Virus record (IMG/VR): IMGVR_UViG_3300007735_000697
Span: 1-38,246 of that record
From: a virus
DNA: 38,246 nt
Direction: 5' to 3' (one strand)
The translations under genes and the position numbers were made by a program. A model generated the notes under the pieces. It was not told the DNA's origin. It worked only from the letters and a program-made list of their open reading frames with translations, and made no database searches. Shown in pieces: positions 1,998 to 38,246 of the stretch. Numbering within the stretch: position 1 is the stretch's first letter; each line of letters starts with the position of its first letter.

Positions 1998-2057
1998 GCC
2001 TTGAATGTAAGTGCTTACTAACGTTGACGGGGGGAGGGGTCATCGCTTGTGTTTTAT

Positions 2058-2086
2058 TTTTGTGGGAGCCTACCCCGCTCACAAAA
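2058..2086. other. Hairpin in the conserved non-coding block, copy A
   Basis: TTTTGTG (2058-2064) pairs with CACAAAA (2080-2086). Inside, AGC pairs with GCT around a C-rich loop with a two-base bulge. It lies in a 125-base block that differs at only a few positions from the right end of the window (hairpin there 38153-38181). No U-tract follows, so it is not a standard terminator. A packaging, origin or processing signal is possible. Confidence 0.45.
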
Positions 2087-2411
2087 GAGTAAAATTAGGT
2101 AAATACTGCACTGCAACAAATAAGGACAGATGAGTACAGTATTATGTTAAGTTGTTGTCAGGTAAGGAATAATTGGGGACAGAAGAGGAACTAAGGCGGT
2201 GGAATCCGTGCACCCTGGATGGGGGACTATAGAGGATACTTGAATGAGAAGACGCAGATGCTGAACGACATAGCCATAGGAAGGCTTAAAACAGCCTTAG
2301 AAGCCTCGGAATGTACAAAGACATACCCAGGTAGCCATGTAGCCTGTTAACGCCTTGTAGGGGCTATAAACCCTTGGAATGTAAAGACAACACAAAGATA
2401 GTAGAAAGTAC

Positions 2412-2460: not shown

Positions 2461-2620
2461 GATACATCTATGCTCCATAGATGATACATAGATGTTAAAT
2501 ACACTTTATAAGTAATAATACTATATAAGTATATAATACATTTATGTATTATACATTATAAGTAATATACTATTATAAGTATTATACATATAAGTTAACG
2601 TATAAGTATACGTTAAAGTT
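2461..2620. repeat. AT-rich repeat island with TATAAGTA units and palindromes
   Basis: TATAAGTA occurs at 2507, 2524, 2557, 2574 and 2601, with a TATAAGTT variant at 2589. A perfect 9-bp inverted repeat TTAACGTAT/ATACGTTAA spans 2595-2616. CATCTATG/CATAGATG (2465-2483) is another perfect inverted repeat, and CATAGATG recurs at 2487-2494. The same TATAAGTA and ATACGTTAAAG motifs appear in the AT-rich island at 35371-35466. Candidates are an origin of replication or a cluster of regulator sites. Confidence 0.6.
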
Positions 2621-2767: not shown

Positions 2768-3154
2768 GTGACAAGACCTTCTGGTAACAAAATGGGTCGG
2801 CCCTCAAAGAAAGCATTGGCCGAAATGAAAGAAAACAGGTCGGTGGGAAGACCTAAGGGTACAGCAGCAATAATAAACGAATATCGGGACCGCATGTTGA
2901 TGTCCCCAAAATCCAGCAAGGTGTTGGAGAAGATATTTGATGCTGCCCTTAACGATGAGCACCCCCACCAAGCAGCAGCCTGGAAGCTGGTGGTAGACCG
3001 TGTGGTTCCTGTTTCTGCTTTTGATTCCGCAAAGCAAGGTGGATCAACACCTCAAATCAGCATCAACATCTCGGGATTGAACCAGCCTACGGCTGAAGTC
3101 GTGGAGCAGGTGGAAGATGTGTCTTACCGGGAGGTAGATGATGACAACGCTTAA
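2768..3154 (+). CDS. Putative terminase small subunit
   Basis: I call GTG 2768 as the start (128 residues): it has an AAAGGA site (2756-2761) 6 bases upstream and leaves a normal leader from the promoter at 2690-2717. The upstream in-frame GTG at 2729 would be almost leaderless. Two AT-hook-like motifs (MGRPSKK, VGRPKG) in the N-terminal part suggest DNA binding, followed by a helical region (LEKIFDAALNDEHPHQAAAWKLVVDR) typical of small terminases, and an acidic C-terminus. Its 3' end overlaps terL by 14-17 bases. The role, recognising the packaging site and loading the large subunit, is inferred from position and motifs. Confidence 0.75.
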   Translation: MTRPSGNKMGRPSKKALAEMKENRSVGRPKGTAAIINEYRDRMLMSPKSSKVLEKIFDAALNDEHPHQAAAWKLVVDRVVPVSAFDSAKQGGSTPQISINISGLNQPTAEVVEQVEDVSYREVDDDNA

Positions 3155-4400
3155 CTTCCAATTGTTGAAGTGGCAGCAGGAAGTGTTTAACGACAAACAC
3201 CGATTCAAGGTGGTGGCTGCTGGTCGTCGTTGTGGTAAGTCTCGACTGTCTGCGGTTACCCTGTTGATTGAGGGTTTGAACTGTCCGGATGGTTCCTCGG
3301 TAATGTATGTCGCCCCTACCTTGGGGCAGGCACGGACGATTATCTGGGACTTGCTGCATGAGTTGGGACGACCTGTAATTAAATCCAGCCACGTTAACAA
3401 CCTTGAGATTACGCTCATCAACGGCAGAAAGATTCTGGTACGAGGTGCAGACAACCCTGACTCGCTGCGAGGTGTGTCGTTAACGTATCTGGTGTTGGAC
3501 GAGTGTGCGTTCGTGAAGCAGGATGTGTGGGAGAAAATCCTTCGTGCTGCCTTGTCGGACAAGAAGGGCCGAGCATTATTTATTTCTACCCCTAGCGGCA
3601 GGAACTGGTTTTTCGATACGTTTAAGCTCGGACAGTCGGAAGAAGATGAAGAATGGAAAGCGTGGCACTTCACCACGCAAGACAACGAAACCATTGATCC
3701 CAAGGAAATCGAGGCTGCTAAACGTACCCTGAGTTCCTTTGCGTTCAAGCAAGAATACTTGTCGTCGTTTGACACCGCTGGTGCGGATGTATTCAAGGAA
3801 GAATGGTTCAAGACTGCTCCAGAACCGCAGTATGGTCAATATGTCGTAGCGATTGACTTGGCTGGTTTTGAGGAAGTAGGCAAGAACGCTGGAGCATCCA
3901 AGAAAAGATTAGATGAATCTGCTATTGCTATTGTCAAGATTGAGGACAACGGCAACTGGTGGGTACACAAGATTCTACATGGTCGGTGGGACATCAGAGA
4001 GACTGCTGTCAATATACTAAAGACAATCAGGGACTATGAGCCTATTTCTGTTGGTATTGAACGAGGGGCATTGAAGAATGCTGTTCTGCCCTATCTTAAC
4101 GATTTGATGAGGAAGAACAACATTTATGCACACATTCAAGACCTTACGCACGGCAATAAAAAGAAAGTTGACCGGATTGTTTGGAGTCTTCAGGGCCGCA
4201 TGGAGCACGGGCGAATTTCGTTCAATGAAGAAGAAGATTGGGAAGAATTTAGAGACCAGATTGTTATGTTTCCTACTTCTGGCGTCCATGATGATCTTGT
4301 TGATGCGTTGAGTTATGTCGATCAATTGGCTTTGACTAACTATCAGCAAGATTACGAAGAAGACGAATATATTGTTTTAGACAAAATTGCGGGGTACTAA
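3141..4400 (+). CDS. terL: Terminase large subunit
   Basis: DNA-packaging motor with an N-terminal ATPase and a C-terminal RNase H-like nuclease. Visible motifs, counted from the ATG at 3138: Walker A at about residues 28-35 (AGRRCGKS), Walker B LVLDE at about 118-122, an ATPase coupling-type STPSG motif near 150-154, and nuclease acidic residues Asp240 (VAIDLAG), Glu308 (GIERG) and Asp385-386 (HDDLVDAL). Two ATGs occur at 3138 and 3141; the GGAGG site at 3130-3134 fits the second better (6-base spacing). Length about 419 is normal for a podoviral TerL. It overlaps the small subunit gene, implying coupled translation. Confidence 0.95.
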   Translation: MTTLNFQLLKWQQEVFNDKHRFKVVAAGRRCGKSRLSAVTLLIEGLNCPDGSSVMYVAPTLGQARTIIWDLLHELGRPVIKSSHVNNLEITLINGRKILVRGADNPDSLRGVSLTYLVLDECAFVKQDVWEKILRAALSDKKGRALFISTPSGRNWFFDTFKLGQSEEDEEWKAWHFTTQDNETIDPKEIEAAKRTLSSFAFKQEYLSSFDTAGADVFKEEWFKTAPEPQYGQYVVAIDLAGFEEVGKNAGASKKRLDESAIAIVKIEDNGNWWVHKILHGRWDIRETAVNILKTIRDYEPISVGIERGALKNAVLPYLNDLMRKNNIYAHIQDLTHGNKKKVDRIVWSLQGRMEHGRISFNEEEDWEEFRDQIVMFPTSGVHDDLVDALSYVDQLALTNYQQDYEEDEYIVLDKIAGY

Positions 4401-30408: not shown

Positions 30409-30493
30409 TGGTGCGGCTGACCGGACTCGAACCGGTACGCCGATTGGCGAGGGATTTTAAGTCCCTTGCGGCTACCAATTACGCCACAGCCGC
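30409..30493 (-). tRNA. tRNA-Leu (anticodon UAA), CCA encoded
   Basis: The acceptor stem GCGGCTG/CAGCCGC pairs perfectly, and the CCA end is encoded (30409-30411 complement). The anticodon stem AGGGA/TCCCT holds the loop CTTAAAA with anticodon TAA. A long variable arm (CGCC/GGCG) gives the type II shape of leucine tRNAs, and the T-loop GTTCGAGTC is standard. It reads UUA codons. It lies inside the replication operon, 21 bases before the SSB start. Confidence 0.95.
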
Positions 30494-30499
30494 AAAACA

Positions 30500-30682
30500 T
30501 TATTGTAGCATAACCGGTGCGTCTTGTAAATCCCCATACTCTTTATTCAGGTATTCTAGGCACAAAAACAACATCATCGCTACCTTAAAGACATCCAATC
30601 CTGGCGTGTGCGCCAACTCAAATGAGTTCTCATACACATCAATGATGATGCGGTCAGTGGGTTTCTCGCCAGTTTCTGCCAA
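30500..30682 (-). CDS. 60-residue hypothetical protein
   Basis: Starts at TTG 30682, chosen because a GGAG site lies 9 bases upstream and no ATG is available. It overlaps the polymerase end by 29 bases. The sequence is acidic with a helical core (LDVFKVAMMLFLCLEYLNKEYG). Not recognised. The gene ends seven bases before the tRNA. Confidence 0.6.
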   Translation of the reverse strand: MAETGEKPTDRIIIDVYENSFELAHTPGLDVFKVAMMLFLCLEYLNKEYGDLQDAPVMLQ

Positions 30683-32369
30683 TTTTATATTCTCCGTCTA
30701 GGGGACACCTGAGTTTGAAGTGTTCCCCTGCTTCGATAATGCTCATACGAGCCGCTTTACCTGCTTCCTCTGCGATAGCCTCCGGGCACTCGAACTGAAA
30801 TTCATCATGCACGTTAGCAACCAGCTTGACCGGCCACCTGTTAGCCCTGATCTTGTTGTCAAACAGTACCAGAGCCTTCTTCATCACAATAGCCCCCGCG
30901 CCTTGCAGTAGGCTGTTAAGAGCCGCATGTTCGGACCTGATCCAGATACGCCTACCATCTAATCCTTCAACTGAGCCTGTAGCAGCACGTTTCTTGACAT
31001 CTCCCAAGAGTCGTTCAAGTGCTGGAGTTTGCCGTAGAAATTTGGACTTGAGTCTTTCGCCTTCTCTTGCAGTTCCCCCAACAATGCTTCCAATTTTTGC
31101 ATCTCCTGCTCCATAGAGGAATGCATAAATAAAAGTCTTCGCTGCGTCTCGTGTAGGAAGTCCTGCTGCTCTCTGATTGACTGTATGCACATCTGTGCCG
31201 TCTTTTGAGCTTCCAGTAGTAACTGTTTTGACATAGTTTTCATCCTGCATGTAGTGAGCTAACATACGCAACTCCAGGCCAGAAGCATCACAACCCACCA
31301 GCACGTTGCCTTCTTCAACTGTCCAGCACTGACGACACTCAGGTCCATACACGCTGCCAGAGTTAGGAATCTGCGCCATGTTGGGGCTACTGTGTGTCAT
31401 ACGGCCTGTCACAGCACCGTTGGTAATGACCTTACCGTGTACCCTACCATCGCTACCAACAGCCTCTAGCCATGACTGAATCTGTGCAATGCGTTTCTGT
31501 AGCAGCAGATACTCAGCAATCATTTTGGCTTCAGGCAGGTCAACCTTAGACAACACAACTTCGTCCACCTTCGGCTGTCCATTTTCGGTAAACTGTTTAG
31601 GCTTCCACCCAAGTTCGATCAGCTTTTCTCCGATTTGCTTTCTGCTACCGGGGTTGAAAGTAACCAGCAACGGCTTGAGTTGCTTGCCTGTTTTCTCACT
31701 GACTCGTTGGACTTCGTATGGAGGCCACCGCTGTTGCATTGCCTCATATATTCCATCCAACTTTCCTTGGATGTCAGCAAGTAGCAAGGTTGCGTGCTGT
31801 ACGTCGAGTTTGAATCCATTTCGTTCCTGTTGGGCAATGATTGCCGCTACTCTGTGTTCAAGATCAATAGACTCTTGGCTAAACCCTTTCTTCTCCAGTG
31901 ACCTTACCAGCGAAAGGTAAAGCCGACGAGTAACATCACAATCCCGTATGCAATAATACTGAAGCAAAGAGTCTTTGGGTTTGTCAAAGCATTCTCCAGG
32001 ATACTCTTGTCGTCGTCCTTCCATCCACTCCCAGATTTTTCCGTACTCAATCTTCATCTCCCCGCCCAGAGTCTTCCCCCAAGCGTCTAGACTGTGGCCT
32101 TGCTCTCTGCTCGGATCGAGCAACCTTGATGCTATCAACGTATCGTACACTTGGTTCCATAGAATCTTCGTATTCCAAAGCCGACTCAACATCGGAAAAT
32201 CGAAGTTTATTCCGTTGTGGGCTACTATCAACGTAGCGCCCTTTATAAATGCCACGAGGTTGCTTGCTGCTTTCCATACTTTTACTTCACCTGTGTCAAT
32301 GTCCTGCGTCACCGCTAGGTGTATTGTACTGTGTTTGCTGTCCGTTTCGATGTCCAGCACTATCCGCAT
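30654..32369 (-). CDS. DNA polymerase, family A, T7-type with 3'-5' exonuclease domain
   Basis: 571 residues. Exonuclease acids: Asp6/Glu8 (LDIETD), Asp57 (HNGINFDFP), Asp143/Asp145 (IRDCDVT). Polymerase motif A has Asp361 (GCDASGLELRMLAHY), motif B is R407-DAAK-TFIY415-AFLYG, and motif C is HDE at 521-523. The motif B residue matching E. coli Pol I Phe762 is Tyr415, as in T7. It is somewhat shorter than T7 gp5 (704), with a reduced thumb-side region. It should pair with the gp4-like primase-helicase and SSB here; a thioredoxin-binding loop is not obvious. Confidence 0.96.
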   Translation of the reverse strand: MRIVLDIETDSKHSTIHLAVTQDIDTGEVKVWKAASNLVAFIKGATLIVAHNGINFDFPMLSRLWNTKILWNQVYDTLIASRLLDPSREQGHSLDAWGKTLGGEMKIEYGKIWEWMEGRRQEYPGECFDKPKDSLLQYYCIRDCDVTRRLYLSLVRSLEKKGFSQESIDLEHRVAAIIAQQERNGFKLDVQHATLLLADIQGKLDGIYEAMQQRWPPYEVQRVSEKTGKQLKPLLVTFNPGSRKQIGEKLIELGWKPKQFTENGQPKVDEVVLSKVDLPEAKMIAEYLLLQKRIAQIQSWLEAVGSDGRVHGKVITNGAVTGRMTHSSPNMAQIPNSGSVYGPECRQCWTVEEGNVLVGCDASGLELRMLAHYMQDENYVKTVTTGSSKDGTDVHTVNQRAAGLPTRDAAKTFIYAFLYGAGDAKIGSIVGGTAREGERLKSKFLRQTPALERLLGDVKKRAATGSVEGLDGRRIWIRSEHAALNSLLQGAGAIVMKKALVLFDNKIRANRWPVKLVANVHDEFQFECPEAIAEEAGKAARMSIIEAGEHFKLRCPLDGEYKIGRNWRETH

Positions 32370-32848: not shown

Positions 32849-33008
32849 TTTTGTATGTTTTGAAATAAAACTTCGCGTATTCTTCACTATCGTCTTCTAC
32901 AATAGAGCCGTCAGGAAGAACATACATACCGTCAGAAAGATATACAGGTTCACCTGGTTCAAGACCAGAAAATGACAATTGCTCTAAATAAAATTCACTG
33001 TATTTCAT
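32832..33008 (-). CDS. 58-residue hypothetical protein
   Basis: ATG 33006-33008 overlaps the primase-helicase stop by four bases. Sequence MKYSEFYLEQLSFSGLEPGE, then PVYLSDGMYVLPDGSIVEDD and a Lys/Tyr-rich end. The central part reads as a short beta-hairpin. Its end overlaps the next gene by 17 bases. Function unknown; position suggests co-expression with the replisome. Confidence 0.65.
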   Translation of the reverse strand: MKYSEFYLEQLSFSGLEPGEPVYLSDGMYVLPDGSIVEDDSEEYAKFYFKTYKNERTL

Positions 33009-34615
33009 AGCGGTTGCTCCTCTACTTCCGTCATTCTACCAGTTTCCAGATTAAAACGCAAGTGGCAGGCAGGGCCAGTGAATCCATTAAAGCGATTCTT
33101 GGCCACAGATACCTTGGTGGTATGTCGCTCTGCCTCGTCCTCTGCCATGCTGTTACGCTCCAAGGTAATCACAGCGTCCGACAACTGAGCAATAGCGCCA
33201 CTACCACGCAACTGAGACAAACTAACCGCCTGTCCGTCCTCGTGACCAGCGTTGCCGGTGGGCCTACGCAGGTGCGAGACACAGAACAAGGTAATCCCGA
33301 GTTCCTGGACCAGTGTACGCAGCTTGGTCATCAGATTGTCAATGGCCTTACGCTCATCGTTCAGGTCTTGGCCCGAGATAACGATAGAGATATGGTCAAG
33401 GAAAACCACGCGACAATCCAAAGCTTTAGCCATGTACCGAATGCGGTTGAGTACGTTGTCAATATCCAAGGAGCCGAAATGGTCAAAAAGATAAACACGA
33501 CCAGTGCCCAACGTTGAATCAAAAGCATTCTTGAGTTCTTCGGTAGAAACCAGTGTATCAGGCAGGTGCAGCATCTTGTTAGCATGGACAGACATGATGC
33601 TACGAGCCGTCTTTCGTACCGATTCCTCCAAGAACATAGCACCGATCTTCCAATCAGTCTTTTGTAGGATTTCATATAGAATTTCCCGTAGAAACTGAGA
33701 TTTACCCAGACCAGAGCCTGCCGTGATAGTAACCAGTTCAGACGACCGAATGCCATAGAGCAACCTATTCAGTCCCTTCCAAGGGTAAAAGGATTCTGCT
33801 GGCTTTTCTGGCTCTGAGACTGAATCCCAGAGGGTAGCAGCATCCACAATGCCATCTGGCACAAACGGCTCAGCACGCCACCATTCATTGACAAACTCTT
33901 TACTTGCTCCGGCGATGAGGTAATCACAGGCATCCTTGTATCCTGACAGGTGTTTAACAATCTTGGCCTTGGGTCCAAATAGTTCAGCCACTTCCTTTGC
34001 TGCCTTGCGGCCTGGTTCGTCTGCATCGAAGCAGATCACCACATTCTCAAAGGTGTTCAGCCACTCATACTGTGCCTTACAATCCTTCAGTGCTGCGTTG
34101 GCACCGTTTCGGATTGAGACAACAGGCCACTGGCTTCCAGTGAGTTGAAAAGCTGCAAGGGCGTCAAGCTCTCCTTCAACGATGGTGACGTACTTTCCAC
34201 CACTATGGAATAGATTTTGTCCGAAGAGTCGCGTAGTGTTAAAATCACCAAGGATTGAGAAACGCTTATCTGCCACGAAACGCAGTTTATAGGCAACCGT
34301 GCGACCGTCAGAGTCGGTATATGGGTAGAAGTGTTTTCCATCTTTCTGGGTTACAGAGTATTTCTCACAGGTGGCCCGAGTAATCTTACGCTCGGGAATG
34401 GGCAGAACCTCACCGCCCGGTTCCACAAACTGTGGGCGAGGTGCCCTTGCTGCGTCGGCAATAGCCATATGGTACTCGAATTCTTCCTCTGTGCGGGTTG
34501 TATTACAGGCAAAACAGTGTGTATGCCCATCATCGTACAGGGCGCAGGCGTCGCTGCTACTGCAGTCCTTGCATGGCCCATGCTTGATGAATCGTGATGC
34601 TGTTTTGTGGTTCAT
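33005..34615 (-). CDS. Primase-helicase, T7 gp4-like
   Basis: 536 residues. An N-terminal zinc-binding domain with Cys15, Cys18, Cys34 and Cys37 recognises primer sites. The TOPRIM primase has EGELD at 147-151 and FDADEPG near 196-202. The RecA-like helicase has Walker A GSGLGKS at 300-306, and FLDHISIV as Walker B/H2. The length is close to T7 gp4 (566). It unwinds the fork and makes primers for the family A polymerase encoded downstream. It overlaps neighbours on both sides by four bases. Confidence 0.95.
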   Translation of the reverse strand: MNHKTASRFIKHGPCKDCSSSDACALYDDGHTHCFACNTTRTEEEFEYHMAIADAARAPRPQFVEPGGEVLPIPERKITRATCEKYSVTQKDGKHFYPYTDSDGRTVAYKLRFVADKRFSILGDFNTTRLFGQNLFHSGGKYVTIVEGELDALAAFQLTGSQWPVVSIRNGANAALKDCKAQYEWLNTFENVVICFDADEPGRKAAKEVAELFGPKAKIVKHLSGYKDACDYLIAGASKEFVNEWWRAEPFVPDGIVDAATLWDSVSEPEKPAESFYPWKGLNRLLYGIRSSELVTITAGSGLGKSQFLREILYEILQKTDWKIGAMFLEESVRKTARSIMSVHANKMLHLPDTLVSTEELKNAFDSTLGTGRVYLFDHFGSLDIDNVLNRIRYMAKALDCRVVFLDHISIVISGQDLNDERKAIDNLMTKLRTLVQELGITLFCVSHLRRPTGNAGHEDGQAVSLSQLRGSGAIAQLSDAVITLERNSMAEDEAERHTTKVSVAKNRFNGFTGPACHLRFNLETGRMTEVEEQPL

Positions 34616-35205: not shown

Positions 35206-35372
35206 TCGACATCACCCACAGGAATTTGACCTTTGTTCAGGCGTCGGACTACTTCCTCCGCAACTTCAGCCATTATTTTATCACGACCTTCAATCATAAA
35301 CAAGTCAACGACATCTTGAATTACCGACCACCTGAAAAACTCATACTGGTCACGTTCGTCAAAGTCTTGCAC
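35202..35372 (-). CDS. 56-residue hypothetical protein, first of the replication operon
   Basis: GTG 35370-35372 with AAAGGA 8 bases upstream. Sequence VQDFDERDQYEFFRWSVIQD, then a helical stretch VVDLFMIEGRDKIMAEVAEE and a basic end. First gene after the promoter at 35471-35499 and the AT-rich island. Not recognised. Confidence 0.65.
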   Translation of the reverse strand: MQDFDERDQYEFFRWSVIQDVVDLFMIEGRDKIMAEVAEEVVRRLNKGQIPVGDVE

Positions 35373-35470
35373 GTTAAAGTTCCTTTAATGTTAGTAATAC
35401 ATTAATGTTAATATACTTATAATGTATATTTAATATATAAGTTATACATTAAAGCATACGTTAAAGTGTT
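35373..35470. repeat. AT-rich island before the replication operon
   Basis: Non-coding and very AT-rich. It has TATAAGTA on the minus strand at 35414-35421, TATAAGTT at 35436-35443, ATACGTTAAAG at 35456-35466, and ACGTTAAAG again just outside at 35371-35379. These motifs are shared with the island at 2461-2620. It forms the 5' leader of the replication operon and could be an origin or regulator-binding cluster. Confidence 0.55.
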
Positions 35471-35499
35471 ATTGTATCACAGTTCCTGATTGTCGTCAA
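35471..35499 (-). promoter_or_regulatory. Leftward sigma-70 promoter of the replication operon
   Basis: On the minus strand: TTGACG (35494-35499), 17-base spacer, TACAAT (35471-35476) with a TGA extended -10. It overlaps the last codons of the CxxC gene, and the transcript would start near 35464, about 92 bases before the first gene of the replication operon. Confidence 0.75.
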
Positions 35500-35686
35500 G
35501 CTCCTGCATCTCTTGATCGATGTCTACCTCTGTGATGAGGTCTTTCCTGTCGCGCACAGGCAACGGTGTCACATCGGAGACAGCAGCAAAGCAAGGATTA
35601 CACATATCCAAAAAGTCACCTGTCATTCCATGTCGTCGGGTTGACTCATAGTCCGACAACAAGCGATCACAGCATACACACTTCAT
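35477..35686 (-). CDS. CxxC small zinc-binding-like protein
   Basis: 69 residues. MKCVCCDRLLSDYESTRRHG opens with Cys3/Cys5/Cys6 and is followed by MCNPC (about 28-32), a likely four-cysteine zinc site. The C-terminal half is acidic (EVDIDQEMQELDDNQEL). Similar short zinc proteins occur in early phage regions without assigned role. Its 3' end carries the replication promoter. The left contig end carries a truncated copy. Confidence 0.8.
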   Translation of the reverse strand: MKCVCCDRLLSDYESTRRHGMTGDFLDMCNPCFAAVSDVTPLPVRDRKDLITEVDIDQEMQELDDNQEL

Positions 35687-35756
35687 TTTAAGCCCTTCTG
35701 GGGTGTTGGTGCAGGATACCCCTCACCCAATGTAAAATAAACGCTCTAAGGCCCGT

Positions 35757-36083
35757 TTAAAGGCCTCTAAACAGCCTTCCCGAAGCCCTTTGCACCTCCC
35801 CTTGTCCCGTCAAGCACATTCGACCATCAGGAAACCATGTAAAAACCAGGATTTCAGCGTCATCAGGGTCAACGAAGATCACCACACGGTGCCCTTCACC
35901 TTGGGACATCAAAAGCTCTTTGTAAGGGCTTTGTGGTGCCCGTAGATGGGCCAGGATCGACTCTGAAGCCCCACAAAGTGCAGGGATGCTCCCTTGCGCC
36001 ATCGGTGGGCTTTGGGCGTGAGACAGTGCTGCGGTAACCAGTAATATACCCATTAGCACCCGTTTAATCTTCATCTTCATCAT
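35757..36083 (-). CDS. Small secreted or periplasmic phage protein, copy B
   Basis: 108 residues from the ATG at 36083 (GAGG site 6 bases upstream). Signal peptide MMKMKIKRVLMGILLVTAAL with an S-H-A cleavage motif, then a mature domain almost identical to copy A (two cysteines kept). Changes cluster in the signal region and just after it, with conservative V/I and A/S swaps elsewhere. See the entry at 141-467 for role. Confidence 0.8.
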   Translation of the reverse strand: MMKMKIKRVLMGILLVTAALSHAQSPPMAQGSIPALCGASESILAHLRAPQSPYKELLMSQGEGHRVVIFVDPDDAEILVFTWFPDGRMCLTGQGEVQRASGRLFRGL

Positions 36084-36183
36084 GCAAAACCTCATAATAT
36101 AGGGTTTCTTCGGCTAATTCGAGCATTAACAATAGATCAGCCTCGGATACTTTGGGTTGATAATCATCAATGTCGTAGTCCAT
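36064..36183 (-). CDS. 39-residue acidic small protein, copy B
   Basis: MDYDIDDYQPKVSEADLLLM, then LELAEET and an Asp/Glu-rich end. The first 26 residues equal copy A; differences lie in the tail, which overlaps the start of the secreted-protein gene. Function unknown. Confidence 0.75.
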   Translation of the reverse strand: MDYDIDDYQPKVSEADLLLMLELAEETLYYEVLHDEDED

Positions 36184-36185
36184 GT

Positions 36186-36332
36186 TTACTTGTCCTTCAC
36201 TAATTCAAATAAACCCAGGCATTCCCCTGTTTCAGGGTCGAAATCATTAGATTCCAGCCACAGACGGGCCATCATGCGACTGTCTGACCGATAGGCCACA
36301 ATTTTAGATGATCGGAATCGGACTAGGTACAT
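36186..36332 (-). CDS. 48-residue conserved small protein, copy B
   Basis: Start ATG 36330-36332, or the adjacent ATG at 36335 which overlaps the previous stop. One residue (Met for Thr) differs from copy A despite about 14 changed codons, so the protein is under strong selection. A longer in-frame extension to 36371 is not conserved in copy A and is rejected. Confidence 0.8.
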   Translation of the reverse strand: MYLVRFRSSKIVAYRSDSRMMARLWLESNDFDPETGECLGLFELVKDK

Positions 36333-36604
36333 CATGCTTCCGGCATAGTGATGGTAGACTGTACAAAGCAAAACACATAACCTTTGCCGTCTGCACTTTG
36401 ACCATAGGCCATTGTGGAGTAATCAGGCGCATATTTAAGTTCACGGTCCATCAAAACCCTAGCAGCTTTGGCATGGCGCTCCACGTCGCCTAAGTCATAA
36501 TCAACGCTGATTGACACGGGCTTGTGCCCATTGTTGGTGTAAGCTTTGATGCGAGCCCCGCGTGTGTCGGTAGCAGGGACAAACTTAGTGTGAATAGCGA
36601 TCAT
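36332..36604 (-). CDS. 90-residue hypothetical protein, only in copy B
   Basis: ATG 36602-36604 behind the conserved leader with GGAG 10 bases upstream; the reading frame upstream to 36685 crosses the leader and is rejected. MIAIHTKFVPATDTRGARIK, then SISVDYDLGDVERHAKAARV and a beta-rich end. The RGARIKA and D...HAKAA patterns recall small phage proteins of unknown function. It replaces the acidic 109-residue gene of copy A exactly at the start codon. Confidence 0.75.
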   Translation of the reverse strand: MIAIHTKFVPATDTRGARIKAYTNNGHKPVSISVDYDLGDVERHAKAARVLMDRELKYAPDYSTMAYGQSADGKGYVFCFVQSTITMPEA

Positions 36605-36660
36605 GATGGATAAGCTCCAGAAGTTACCGCATACCGTGCGGCACGGGTGCGTGTCATCAT

Positions 36661-36704
36661 ACACTGCACACCATAGGGCACTCAATAGAATAGCCCTACA
36701 GTGT
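36661..36704 (-). ncRNA. Conserved intercistronic RNA hairpin, copy B
   Basis: Outer ACACTG (36661-36666) and CAGTGT (36699-36704) pair as in copy A. The inner stem is TAGGGC (36674-36679) with GCCCTA (36693-36698), and a 13-base loop. Compared with copy A the loop side has diverged, yet pairing is kept without a bulge. Confidence 0.55.
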
Positions 36705-36731
36705 GAAGGGTTAAGCTTCCGCAGGAAGCGC

Positions 36732-36911
36732 TCACATTGTCTCAGACAGTGCCAGCATCATACCCTCGCCTGATTGATAATCGTCAAGATTGTAGGGTTT
36801 ATACCCTGCAGGGCGCTGTTCGTTCAGCATGTCGCGAGCTTGCGCCCACCCGTAGCGGCGGATCATTCCCATCATGCGCTCGTATCCGTCCCAAAATGCT
36901 TTTGATTTCAT
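36732..36911 (-). CDS. 59-residue hypothetical protein, only in copy B
   Basis: ATG 36909-36911 with GGAG 8 bases upstream in the shared leader. MKSKAFWDGYERMMGMIRRY followed by GWAQARDMLNEQRPAG and an acidic end. Mostly helical and basic at the front. It stands where copy A has the 84-residue gene (1184-1438). Not recognised. Confidence 0.65.
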   Translation of the reverse strand: MKSKAFWDGYERMMGMIRRYGWAQARDMLNEQRPAGYKPYNLDDYQSGEGMMLALSETM

Positions 36912-36933
36912 TGTCAATTCTCCGATGGTAGGT

Positions 36934-37050
36934 TTAGTTTACAGATTGTGCTGCCTTGTCAGCGTCAGCCAGCGCCTGCGCTGCAGGCTTACCGGCCAGG
37001 ATTCCGGCATTGTAGACAGACAGCCAGAGGCAGTATTGTGATTGTGTCAT
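36934..37050 (-). CDS. 38-residue small protein, only in copy B
   Basis: ATG 37048-37050 overlaps the stop of the upstream gene by four bases. MTQSQYCLWLSVYNAGILAG then KPAAQALADADKAAQSVN. Alanine-rich, helical. One of two extra genes absent from copy A. Function unknown. Confidence 0.6.
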   Translation of the reverse strand: MTQSQYCLWLSVYNAGILAGKPAAQALADADKAAQSVN

Positions 37051-37343
37051 GCTTGCCCCGTGGCTGCGGCGATAGCGGCGCGGATGGCCTTTGAGTGGCG
37101 CTGTACGGTGCCGGGCTTGAATGCGGCAAGCTGCGCCGGGTCGGATAGAACATCCTCGACATACGGCAGGGCGTCCAACAGCGCGTCCAGCAGGGCCGGT
37201 GCTGCTTCAATCAATCGTTTGTTTGCTTCTGCTGCTTTGCCGAGGCCACACGATTCAGTCCATTTGCCGAGGTGTAAATACTTGCCATTTGCCTGACACA
37301 GCGTGTCGTTGCAGAAAGCCCAAGGGCCGGGAGTGTGTTGCAT
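37047..37343 (-). CDS. HTPGPW-family phage protein, only in copy B
   Basis: 98 residues. MQHTPGPWAFCNDTLCQANG, a short beta part, then AAEANKRLIEAAPALLDALLDALPYV: the HTPGPW ... N.RLI.AAP.LL.AL signature of a very common phage and metagenome family of unknown function. The remainder is a helical Ala-rich tail. Its presence here and absence in copy A marks it as a mobile accessory cassette. Confidence 0.8.
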   Translation of the reverse strand: MQHTPGPWAFCNDTLCQANGKYLHLGKWTESCGLGKAAEANKRLIEAAPALLDALLDALPYVEDVLSDPAQLAAFKPGTVQRHSKAIRAAIAAATGQA

Positions 37344-37358
37344 GATGATTCTCCTAAG

Positions 37359-37454
37359 TTAGCGGGTGAGGACGTCAAAGTAGCTAAGGGCGAGCATGGT
37401 GAGACACAAGCCCAAGGCTACAGCGAAGAGACAGTCGATGATGGTGTCGCGCAT
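37359..37454 (-). CDS. 31-residue membrane miniprotein, copy B
   Basis: Identical in amino-acid sequence to the gene at 1460-1555 while eight bases differ, all silent. One transmembrane helix. It keeps its place as the second gene of the leftward early cluster in both haplotypes. Confidence 0.8.
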   Translation of the reverse strand: MRDTIIDCLFAVALGLCLTMLALSYFDVLTR

Positions 37455-37457
37455 GGT

Positions 37458-37712
37458 TCACCCCTTGGAAAGCTTCTTGAGGGCCTGATCCTTCAGCCCG
37501 TAGTGATCGGGTGCCTCAAGCTCAAGGATTCTCGCAGCATAGTCCACGCATTGCGCTGTCGTCAGCTCCGAACTAAAAGGCTGCACGCGGATGAATCGCG
37601 CAACATTCACCAGCACAGTGACAGTGTGCAGAGACTTCGCCAAGGGCTTAGCCTTAGGTGTGGAGTCAGCGGCAATGCCGGACAAGTACGCGGTGGTGGT
37701 ATCGGTAAACAT
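37458..37712 (-). CDS. First early gene of copy B, 84-residue hypothetical protein
   Basis: ATG 37710-37712 with AGAGGA 4-5 bases upstream. MFTDTTTAYLSGIAADSTPK, a central TVTVLVNVARFIRVQPFSSE strand region, and a helical C-terminus ending in a basic LKKLSKG. No recognised family. Copy A has an unrelated 53-residue gene in this position. Confidence 0.7.
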   Translation of the reverse strand: MFTDTTTAYLSGIAADSTPKAKPLAKSLHTVTVLVNVARFIRVQPFSSELTTAQCVDYAARILELEAPDHYGLKDQALKKLSKG

Positions 37713-37759
37713 GGTTTCCTCTTAGGTTGCATCGGTGCGGGATTGCATCCGATGTAGTA

Positions 37760-37789
37760 ACTATAACGCCAACCGCTGCAGCCTGTCTA
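37760..37789 (-). promoter_or_regulatory. Candidate early leftward promoter, copy B
   Basis: TAGACA (37784-37789), 18-base spacer, TATAGT (37760-37765) on the minus strand, about 50 bases before the first early gene. The -10 and leader are shared with copy A. Weak by sequence but supported by conservation. Confidence 0.4.
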
Positions 37790-37893
37790 TAGGGTTTTCC
37801 CTAGGTTTTGCCATCTTTACAATACTTTACATTCATTAGGGTTTACCCTGGTCTTGTATAAGACACAAGAGCACTCTTATATAAGACATAAGT

Positions 37894-37984
37894 GTATACA
37901 CTTTCAGTATACCGTAATTGTAAACAATAATTGTAGACTGTTCAGGTATACAATTGCGGTATACGATTACAGTATACGATATAG
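37894..37984. promoter_or_regulatory. Seven-unit 13-bp iteron array (GTATAC)
   Basis: Units start at 37894, 37907, 37920, 37933, 37946, 37959 and 37972, exactly 13 bases apart. Five begin with the palindrome GTATAC, and units 3 and 4 are the one-base variants GTAAAC and GTAGAC. The array lies 105-195 bases upstream of the candidate early promoter. Regular spacing argues for cooperative binding of a regulator or replication initiator. Copy A has no such array. Confidence 0.8.
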
Positions 37985-38246
37985 GGTCCCGCATCGTCCC
38001 TCACACTAGCCCGCACAAGTACGTTAGTGCTTACTCACCAGGCAATGCGAATGCGAATCATTCTCATTTGCATGTTAGTGTACGCTAACCAGGCCACAGA
38101 AGTGTGTGCTTACTAACATTGACGGGGGGAGGGGTCATCGCTTGTGTTTTATTTTTGTGGGAGCCTACCCCGCTCACAAAAAAGTAAAATTAGGTAAATA
38201 CTGCACTGCAACAAATAAGGGAAAGATGAGTACAGTATTATGTTCC

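Follow-up and report, generated by a model that had tools for sequence, protein, structure and literature searches.

Paired palindrome arrays beside the structural and replication arms of an uncultured phage group: candidate shared operators

Introduction

Phage lambda carries paired operators, oL and oR, on its divergent arms. The primary origin of phage T7 consists of a promoter followed by an AT-rich stretch, and the RNA polymerase of this phage both times gene expression and primes replication. In mitochondria, a stable RNA-DNA hybrid has been proposed at conserved sequence block II, a tract of G-run, A and G-run in the control region of a genome copied by T7-like enzymes.

The window analysed here is a whole IMG/VR record of an uncultured bacterial virus (IMGVR_UViG_3300007735_000697; 38,246 bp, 48% GC). 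It contains two islands, A (2461-2620) and B (35371-35470), each with an array of the 10-bp palindrome ACnTWWAnGT. As in lambda, two arms pointing away from each other have the same palindromic sites repeated next to their promoters, an arrangement in which one factor could serve both. The arrays differ from oL and oR in being longer, AT-rich, near-tandem, mainly downstream of the promoter and about 3 kb apart, and no repressor gene was recognised. As in the T7 primary origin, a promoter is followed by a very AT-rich stretch in a phage with a T7-type primase-helicase and polymerase; here, however, the promoters are of host type, there are two sites with repeated palindromes, and no T7-type RNA polymerase was found. 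The resemblance to conserved sequence block II concerns one short tract of a G-rich element near island A and implies no homology.

Among cultured phages, the closest match of a zinc-ribbon ORF beside island B comes from the Methylophilales phages MEP401 and MEP402, filed under Zobellviridae. In the portions of their records compared, the likeness extends to a zinc-ribbon ORF beside the primase, a split polymerase and divergent arms, but the MEP401 stretches examined yielded no palindrome arrays and no G-tract element. A term search of the main text of the report on Zobellviridae of OM43 (PMC10580990) returned neither 'promoter' nor 'intergenic', and no paper on these islands appeared in the part of the literature that was searched.

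The record belongs to a large group of uncultured podovirus-like phages without a T7-type polymerase, and the arrays give a tangible starting point for asking how the arms of these phages may be coordinated or how their replication may begin. Since the sites are short, exact and conserved, binding and reporter tests would be simple.

Gene arms and map of the record

The plus-strand arm is opened by the large terminase subunit gene (terL; 3138-4400, plus strand), followed by those for the portal, the major head protein and further virion proteins. The minus-strand arm includes the genes for a T7-type primase-helicase (33005-34615) and a family-A DNA polymerase (30654-32369), both on the minus strand, together with exonucleases, thymidylate synthase and ribonucleotide reductase. 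A tRNA-Leu gene with the anticodon TAA lies at 30409-30493, with the polymerase gene on one side and the nuclease genes on the other. The replication arm opens with the zinc-ribbon ORF (35477-35686, minus strand), a conserved landmark just before island B. It encodes 69 amino acids with a CxxC..CxxC pattern and is present in 111 of the 161 sequences searched, window included. The core of its structure model is confident, and no match among solved structures reached E of 0.001 or better.

Between island A and terL lies an ORF that is named here, from its gene position, as the putative small terminase subunit (terS; 2768-3154, plus strand); its GTG start is proposed from the relatives. The product has no PHROG match and no Pfam match above the cut-off, the terS alignment gave no meaningful match among solved structures, and the model of the product (mean pLDDT 56) was too poor for a fold search. 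It carries two AT-hook-like GRP motifs. A G[RK]P hook occurs in the terS product of all 53 relatives compared below, and two hooks occur in 45 of them.

The original prediction placed the islands on a circular map, and this was confirmed with one caveat: positions 1-2148 and 35616-38244 are diverged copies, so that the early region is drawn twice. Matching blocks are 1-716 against 35616-36332 (90.5% identity) and 2011-2148 against 38106-38244 (97%), with three shorter blocks between them. Overlapping ends were found in all 12 near-complete relatives, at arbitrary map positions. In seven of these the overlap is exactly 127 bp at 100%; in the other five it is longer, with 88.6-99.5% identity in four and a mosaic of blocks at 78-95% in the fifth (G007). 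The end copies of the window and the overlaps of the relatives together indicate that the map is a ring, on which roughly 3 kb separate islands A and B. The duplication is most simply explained by two strains having met in the assembly. If the window were simply closed, the starts of primase and terL would be about 6.8 kb apart, against 3.6-6.6 kb in the 53 relatives.

A search for T7-type RNA polymerase (PF00940) recovered the polymerase of Kluyvera phage Kvp1, the positive control, and gave no match in 12 records (the window and 11 near-complete relatives). The arms therefore depend on another polymerase, presumably that of the host. No cellular genome with a matching terminase was found, and thus no link to a host.

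The two islands in the window

Both islands have a GC content of 19%. Among the 100-bp stretches of the window, A ranks lowest in stability and B next lowest. The make-up first described for island A held in each respect: the six repeat units are five copies of TATAAGTA and one of TATAAGTT, the 22-bp palindrome lies at 2532-2553, and the several inverted repeats amount to eight pairs within 2400-2700. The motifs said to be common to both islands fared less evenly. The record has exactly two copies of ATACGTTAAAG, one per island (2608-2618 and 35456-35466). The island B copy of TATAAGTA is found on the minus strand only (as TACTTATA, 35414-35421), the plus strand carrying TATAAGTT (35436-35443).

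The equivalent islands of relatives identify TATAAGTA as one variant of ACnTWWAnGT, of which ACTTATAAGT, ACATTAATGT, ACTTTAAAGT and ACGTTAAAGT are typical forms. The record has nine exact copies, with four in island A, three in island B (at 35371, 35399 and 35458) and two elsewhere; the Markov expectation is 0.10 in A and 0.06 in B, for a motif picked after viewing the islands. Three of the sites in island A follow one another at exact 12-bp steps (2586, 2598 and 2610).

The arrays in related genomes

The starting set comprised 163 loci, three of them pieces of the window. In 65, terL, terS, primase and the zinc-ribbon ORF stand in the expected order, and removal of near-identical early regions left 53 non-redundant relatives. 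The palindrome was defined from the window islands and 26 relatives, so that counts on those genomes are not independent of the motif choice.

Across the 53 relatives, the palindrome keeps two fixed places, just upstream of the putative terS and just after the zinc-ribbon ORF, where it is about 60-fold enriched. The 450 bp before terS hold 89 exact sites and the 200 bp after the zinc-ribbon ORF hold 48, against means of 4.8 (maximum 11) and 2.0 (maximum 7) in shuffles that preserve local composition in 75-bp blocks. Expressed per kb, this is 3.73 at A and 4.53 at B, compared with 0.07 in the rest of the early region (11 sites in 165 kb) and 0.06 in the arms (33 in 516 kb); the remaining stretch from the zinc-ribbon ORF to the primase (43 kb) has 11. 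Clusters of at least four near-matches per 150 bp number 25 at A and 17 at B, with three elsewhere in the early region and two in the arms. A count that is independent of the palindrome definition agrees: TATAAGTA is the commonest 8-mer common to both islands of one genome (28 of 54; early background 5 of 53). Near-matches favour spacings of 12 and 11 bp, and also of 17, 18 and 32 bp; pairs at 12 bp number 25 against 0.5 expected.

Of the 53 relatives, 10 have no exact site in A and 24 have none in the 200-bp B stretch, and one clade (L085, L094, L098, L101 and kin) has few sites in B. The fraction of TATAAGT in A follows that in B across 48 genomes (rho 0.54, without correction for kinship), and raw counts of three motifs show no significant correlation between A and B. 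The motifs are retained in relatives, where their absence from both flanks would have spoken against the original prediction. Recurrence in dozens of related genomes marks the arrays as genuine control elements and the two islands as a genuine, conserved pair of cis-elements.

Predicted promoters beside the arrays

Predicted promoters of host type precede both arrays. Before array A lies P1 (2412-2440, plus strand), TTGACA-17-TACCCT with a TGn element, which aligns with TTGACA-17-TATAAT in relatives. Behind the array lies P2 (2690-2717, plus strand; TTGACT-16-TATAAT, the second hexamer preceded by TG), which leads into terS and the structural arm. On the other side, TTGACG-17-TACAAT with TG (35471-35499, minus strand) stands before array B, which lies in the leader of the replication arm. 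This promoter overlaps the zinc-ribbon ORF at its 3' end, a part of the ORF that also encloses the B promoter of several relatives. Among the 53 relatives and the window (54 in all), 42 reach a promoter score of at least 12 beside A and 24 a score of at least 11 beside B; shuffles give at most 1 and 3, respectively.

A single-copy G-tract element

The most constant non-coding feature in this analysis is a G-tract element, found by profile beside island A at 2029-2101 (plus strand; GGGGGGAGGGGT ... TTTTTGTGGGAGCCTACCCCGCTCACAAAA). A second copy at 38124-38195 (plus strand) is present because the contig ends overlap. In relatives the element spans about 70 bp, with GGGGGGAGGGGT, some 20 free bases and TTTTGnGGGAGCCTCTnnnGnnCACAAAA; it thus joins G6AG4 to a conserved GGAGCCT..CACAAAA block. 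Exactly one profile match was found in each of the 53 relatives, always on the terS strand and 401-1058 bp upstream of terS, and one in each of 12 near-complete genomes. In a wider set of 117 loci with terL, 95 have one match, six have two profile matches and 16 have none, in most cases on a contig that ends short of the element. A pattern scan of viral contigs returned 37 stretches. RNAalifold gave four consensus pairs for the block, with little variation and no convincing covariation. The element could be an origin core, a terminase site or something else, and, occurring once per relative examined, it provides a single landmark for where replication or packaging could begin.

Possible functions of the arrays

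The best reading of the islands, to which we give about an even chance, is that they are shared operators coordinating the late (structural) arm and the replication arm. Among the functions first suggested for them, regulator sites common to both arms are the best supported, as the same array occupies two fixed places with promoters leading into the arms. A dimeric or multi-hook DNA-binding protein would recognise the palindromes and fill the arrays, in which the commonest close spacing, 11-12 bp, is about one helical turn. With the arrays in the leaders of two outward-facing host-type promoters, one for the structural arm from terS and terL onwards and one for the replication arm, a single factor bound to both would hold back or release the two arms together, and the variable early region between the arrays would be expressed first. 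AT-hooks bind the minor groove of AT-rich DNA. The AT-hook-like motifs of the terS product, encoded directly after array A, make it a candidate binder and connect a packaging gene with the arrays; it would then also control its own operon. We infer promoter firing, protein binding, a phage-encoded binder and an effect on transcription from sequence.

The symmetry of the sites, their helical spacing and a folding potential without strand preference favour a protein that reads double-stranded DNA, and the two arrays, fixed in place next to outward promoters, speak for a factor that acts on both arms. Other observations fit shared operators less well. The distance from array to promoter is unequal (median about 108 bp at A, about 12 bp at B), which is untidy for a simple operator; at least one exact site in both A and B is found in only 24 of the 53 relatives; and the direction of the effect is not readable from sequence. 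No regulator family was recognised with Pfam or PHROGs among 20 minus-strand ORFs, the large replication genes aside.

The main rival to shared operators, less probable but still to be taken seriously, is that the islands are twin transcription-coupled replication origins. At each, a host-type promoter would fire into unstable AT-rich repeats, the transcript would open the region and prime a leading strand outward, and a helper protein would use the palindromes as iterons. In the window, and in 42 of 46 relatives' loci (those of the 53 with at least 9 kb), no other 100-bp stretch is less stable than the islands, although AT-rich control regions melt easily whatever they do. The T7-type primase-helicase and family-A polymerase of the phage, the promoter sequence that points into the arm before each array and the single-copy G-tract element beside A are likewise consistent with origins. 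The promoter immediately upstream of an AT-rich region corresponds to a T7-type primary origin; the phage single-subunit RNA polymerase that also belongs to such an origin was absent from the 12 records searched with PF00940. GC skew changes sign between the islands, but it follows gene direction and therefore cannot decide on origins. DnaA-like boxes are not enriched (0.35 per kb at A and 0.09 at B, against 0.25 overall). A DnaA-dependent iteron origin, which should have DnaA boxes beside its iterons, is therefore not supported at A or B.

A more specific version, which we consider rather unlikely, places a transcription-primed origin across the stretch that runs from the G-tract element to the end of array A, and treats array B as the twin of that stretch. 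A transcript made by the host polymerase through GGGGGGAGGGG would form a stable RNA-DNA hybrid like the one proposed at mitochondrial conserved sequence block II, and the AT-rich palindrome arrays would separate the strands so that the helicase could proceed both ways. If true, this would be an origin type for phages equipped with a primase-helicase and polymerase of T7 type but lacking their own RNA polymerase.

A packaging site is similarly doubtful. An AT-hook small terminase would bind array A and the G-tract element would be the cleavage site (cos or pac); island B would either be bound as well or be a copy that serves another purpose. The position of array A just upstream of terS and terL, the AT-hook-like motifs in every one of the 53 terS products and the single copy and fixed orientation of the G-tract element point in this direction. 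In the linear records of eight Arthrobacter phages, a 25-nt match to this element near the right end would do so too, but at E 0.8 it is at chance level and effectively one observation. Packaging leaves island B unexplained, and contig ends are scattered with no single stop base, the end overlaps of all 12 near-complete relatives lying at arbitrary map positions.

An RNA-level leader element in both arm transcripts, such as a nut- or put-like antitermination site, is very improbable. Both arrays come just after a promoter and would lie in the leader if it fires. Folding was compared in the window and in every second relative (27 of 53), and the transcribed strand folds no more strongly than the other; in the window the excess is z -4.24 and -4.21 on the two strands of A and -2.31 and -2.32 on those of B. 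Such equality fits a DNA-level site, and an RNA-specific leader structure was rejected on this ground. Moreover, palindromes of ten bases without a loop make poor RNA hairpins, and the Rfam scan of the window returned tRNA and no other family.

Sequence identity was followed through the early region in 62 related pairs, with unaligned bases counted as zero. It averages about 89-90% across islands A and B alike. Upstream of terS it collapses at about 600 bp, past island A and its promoter (32% at 700 bp), and beyond island B it declines gradually. Island identity is close to coding identity in terL (280 pairs). The islands therefore lie on the conserved side of the variable region: they flank it, as had been proposed, and are not its breakpoints. 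That they are recombination boundaries at which early modules are exchanged is the least probable reading of all, since identity stays high through both islands and drops outside them, even though the region they flank is far more variable than the arms.

Other elements of the early region

Upstream of P1, at 2207-2232 (plus strand), lies CACCCT-GGA-TGGGG, a small GC inverted repeat in an AT-rich setting. It is related to the CACCCTnGnAnGGGG element of relatives, which occurs near array A and sometimes twice around the promoter. The strict CACCCT pattern matches in 27 of the 53 relatives and misses the window itself.

In the central control segment, the right early copy has GTATAC, TCTTATATAAGA and Fur-like repeats, all of which are missing from the left copy. 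The palindrome TCTTATATAAGA is found at 37875-37886, with a one-mismatch copy at 37852. Early regions of 21 of the 53 relatives contain 24 copies, 749-1072 bp from terS, and none lies in arms or islands; the palindrome is also present in the control region of ct2os315 (L165). It looks like an operator of the central early promoter. At 38050-38068, AATGCGAATCATTCTCATT is a palindrome that resembles a Fur box. Similar sites are absent from the arms and occur in the early region of 15 of the 53 relatives, a possible link to host iron control.
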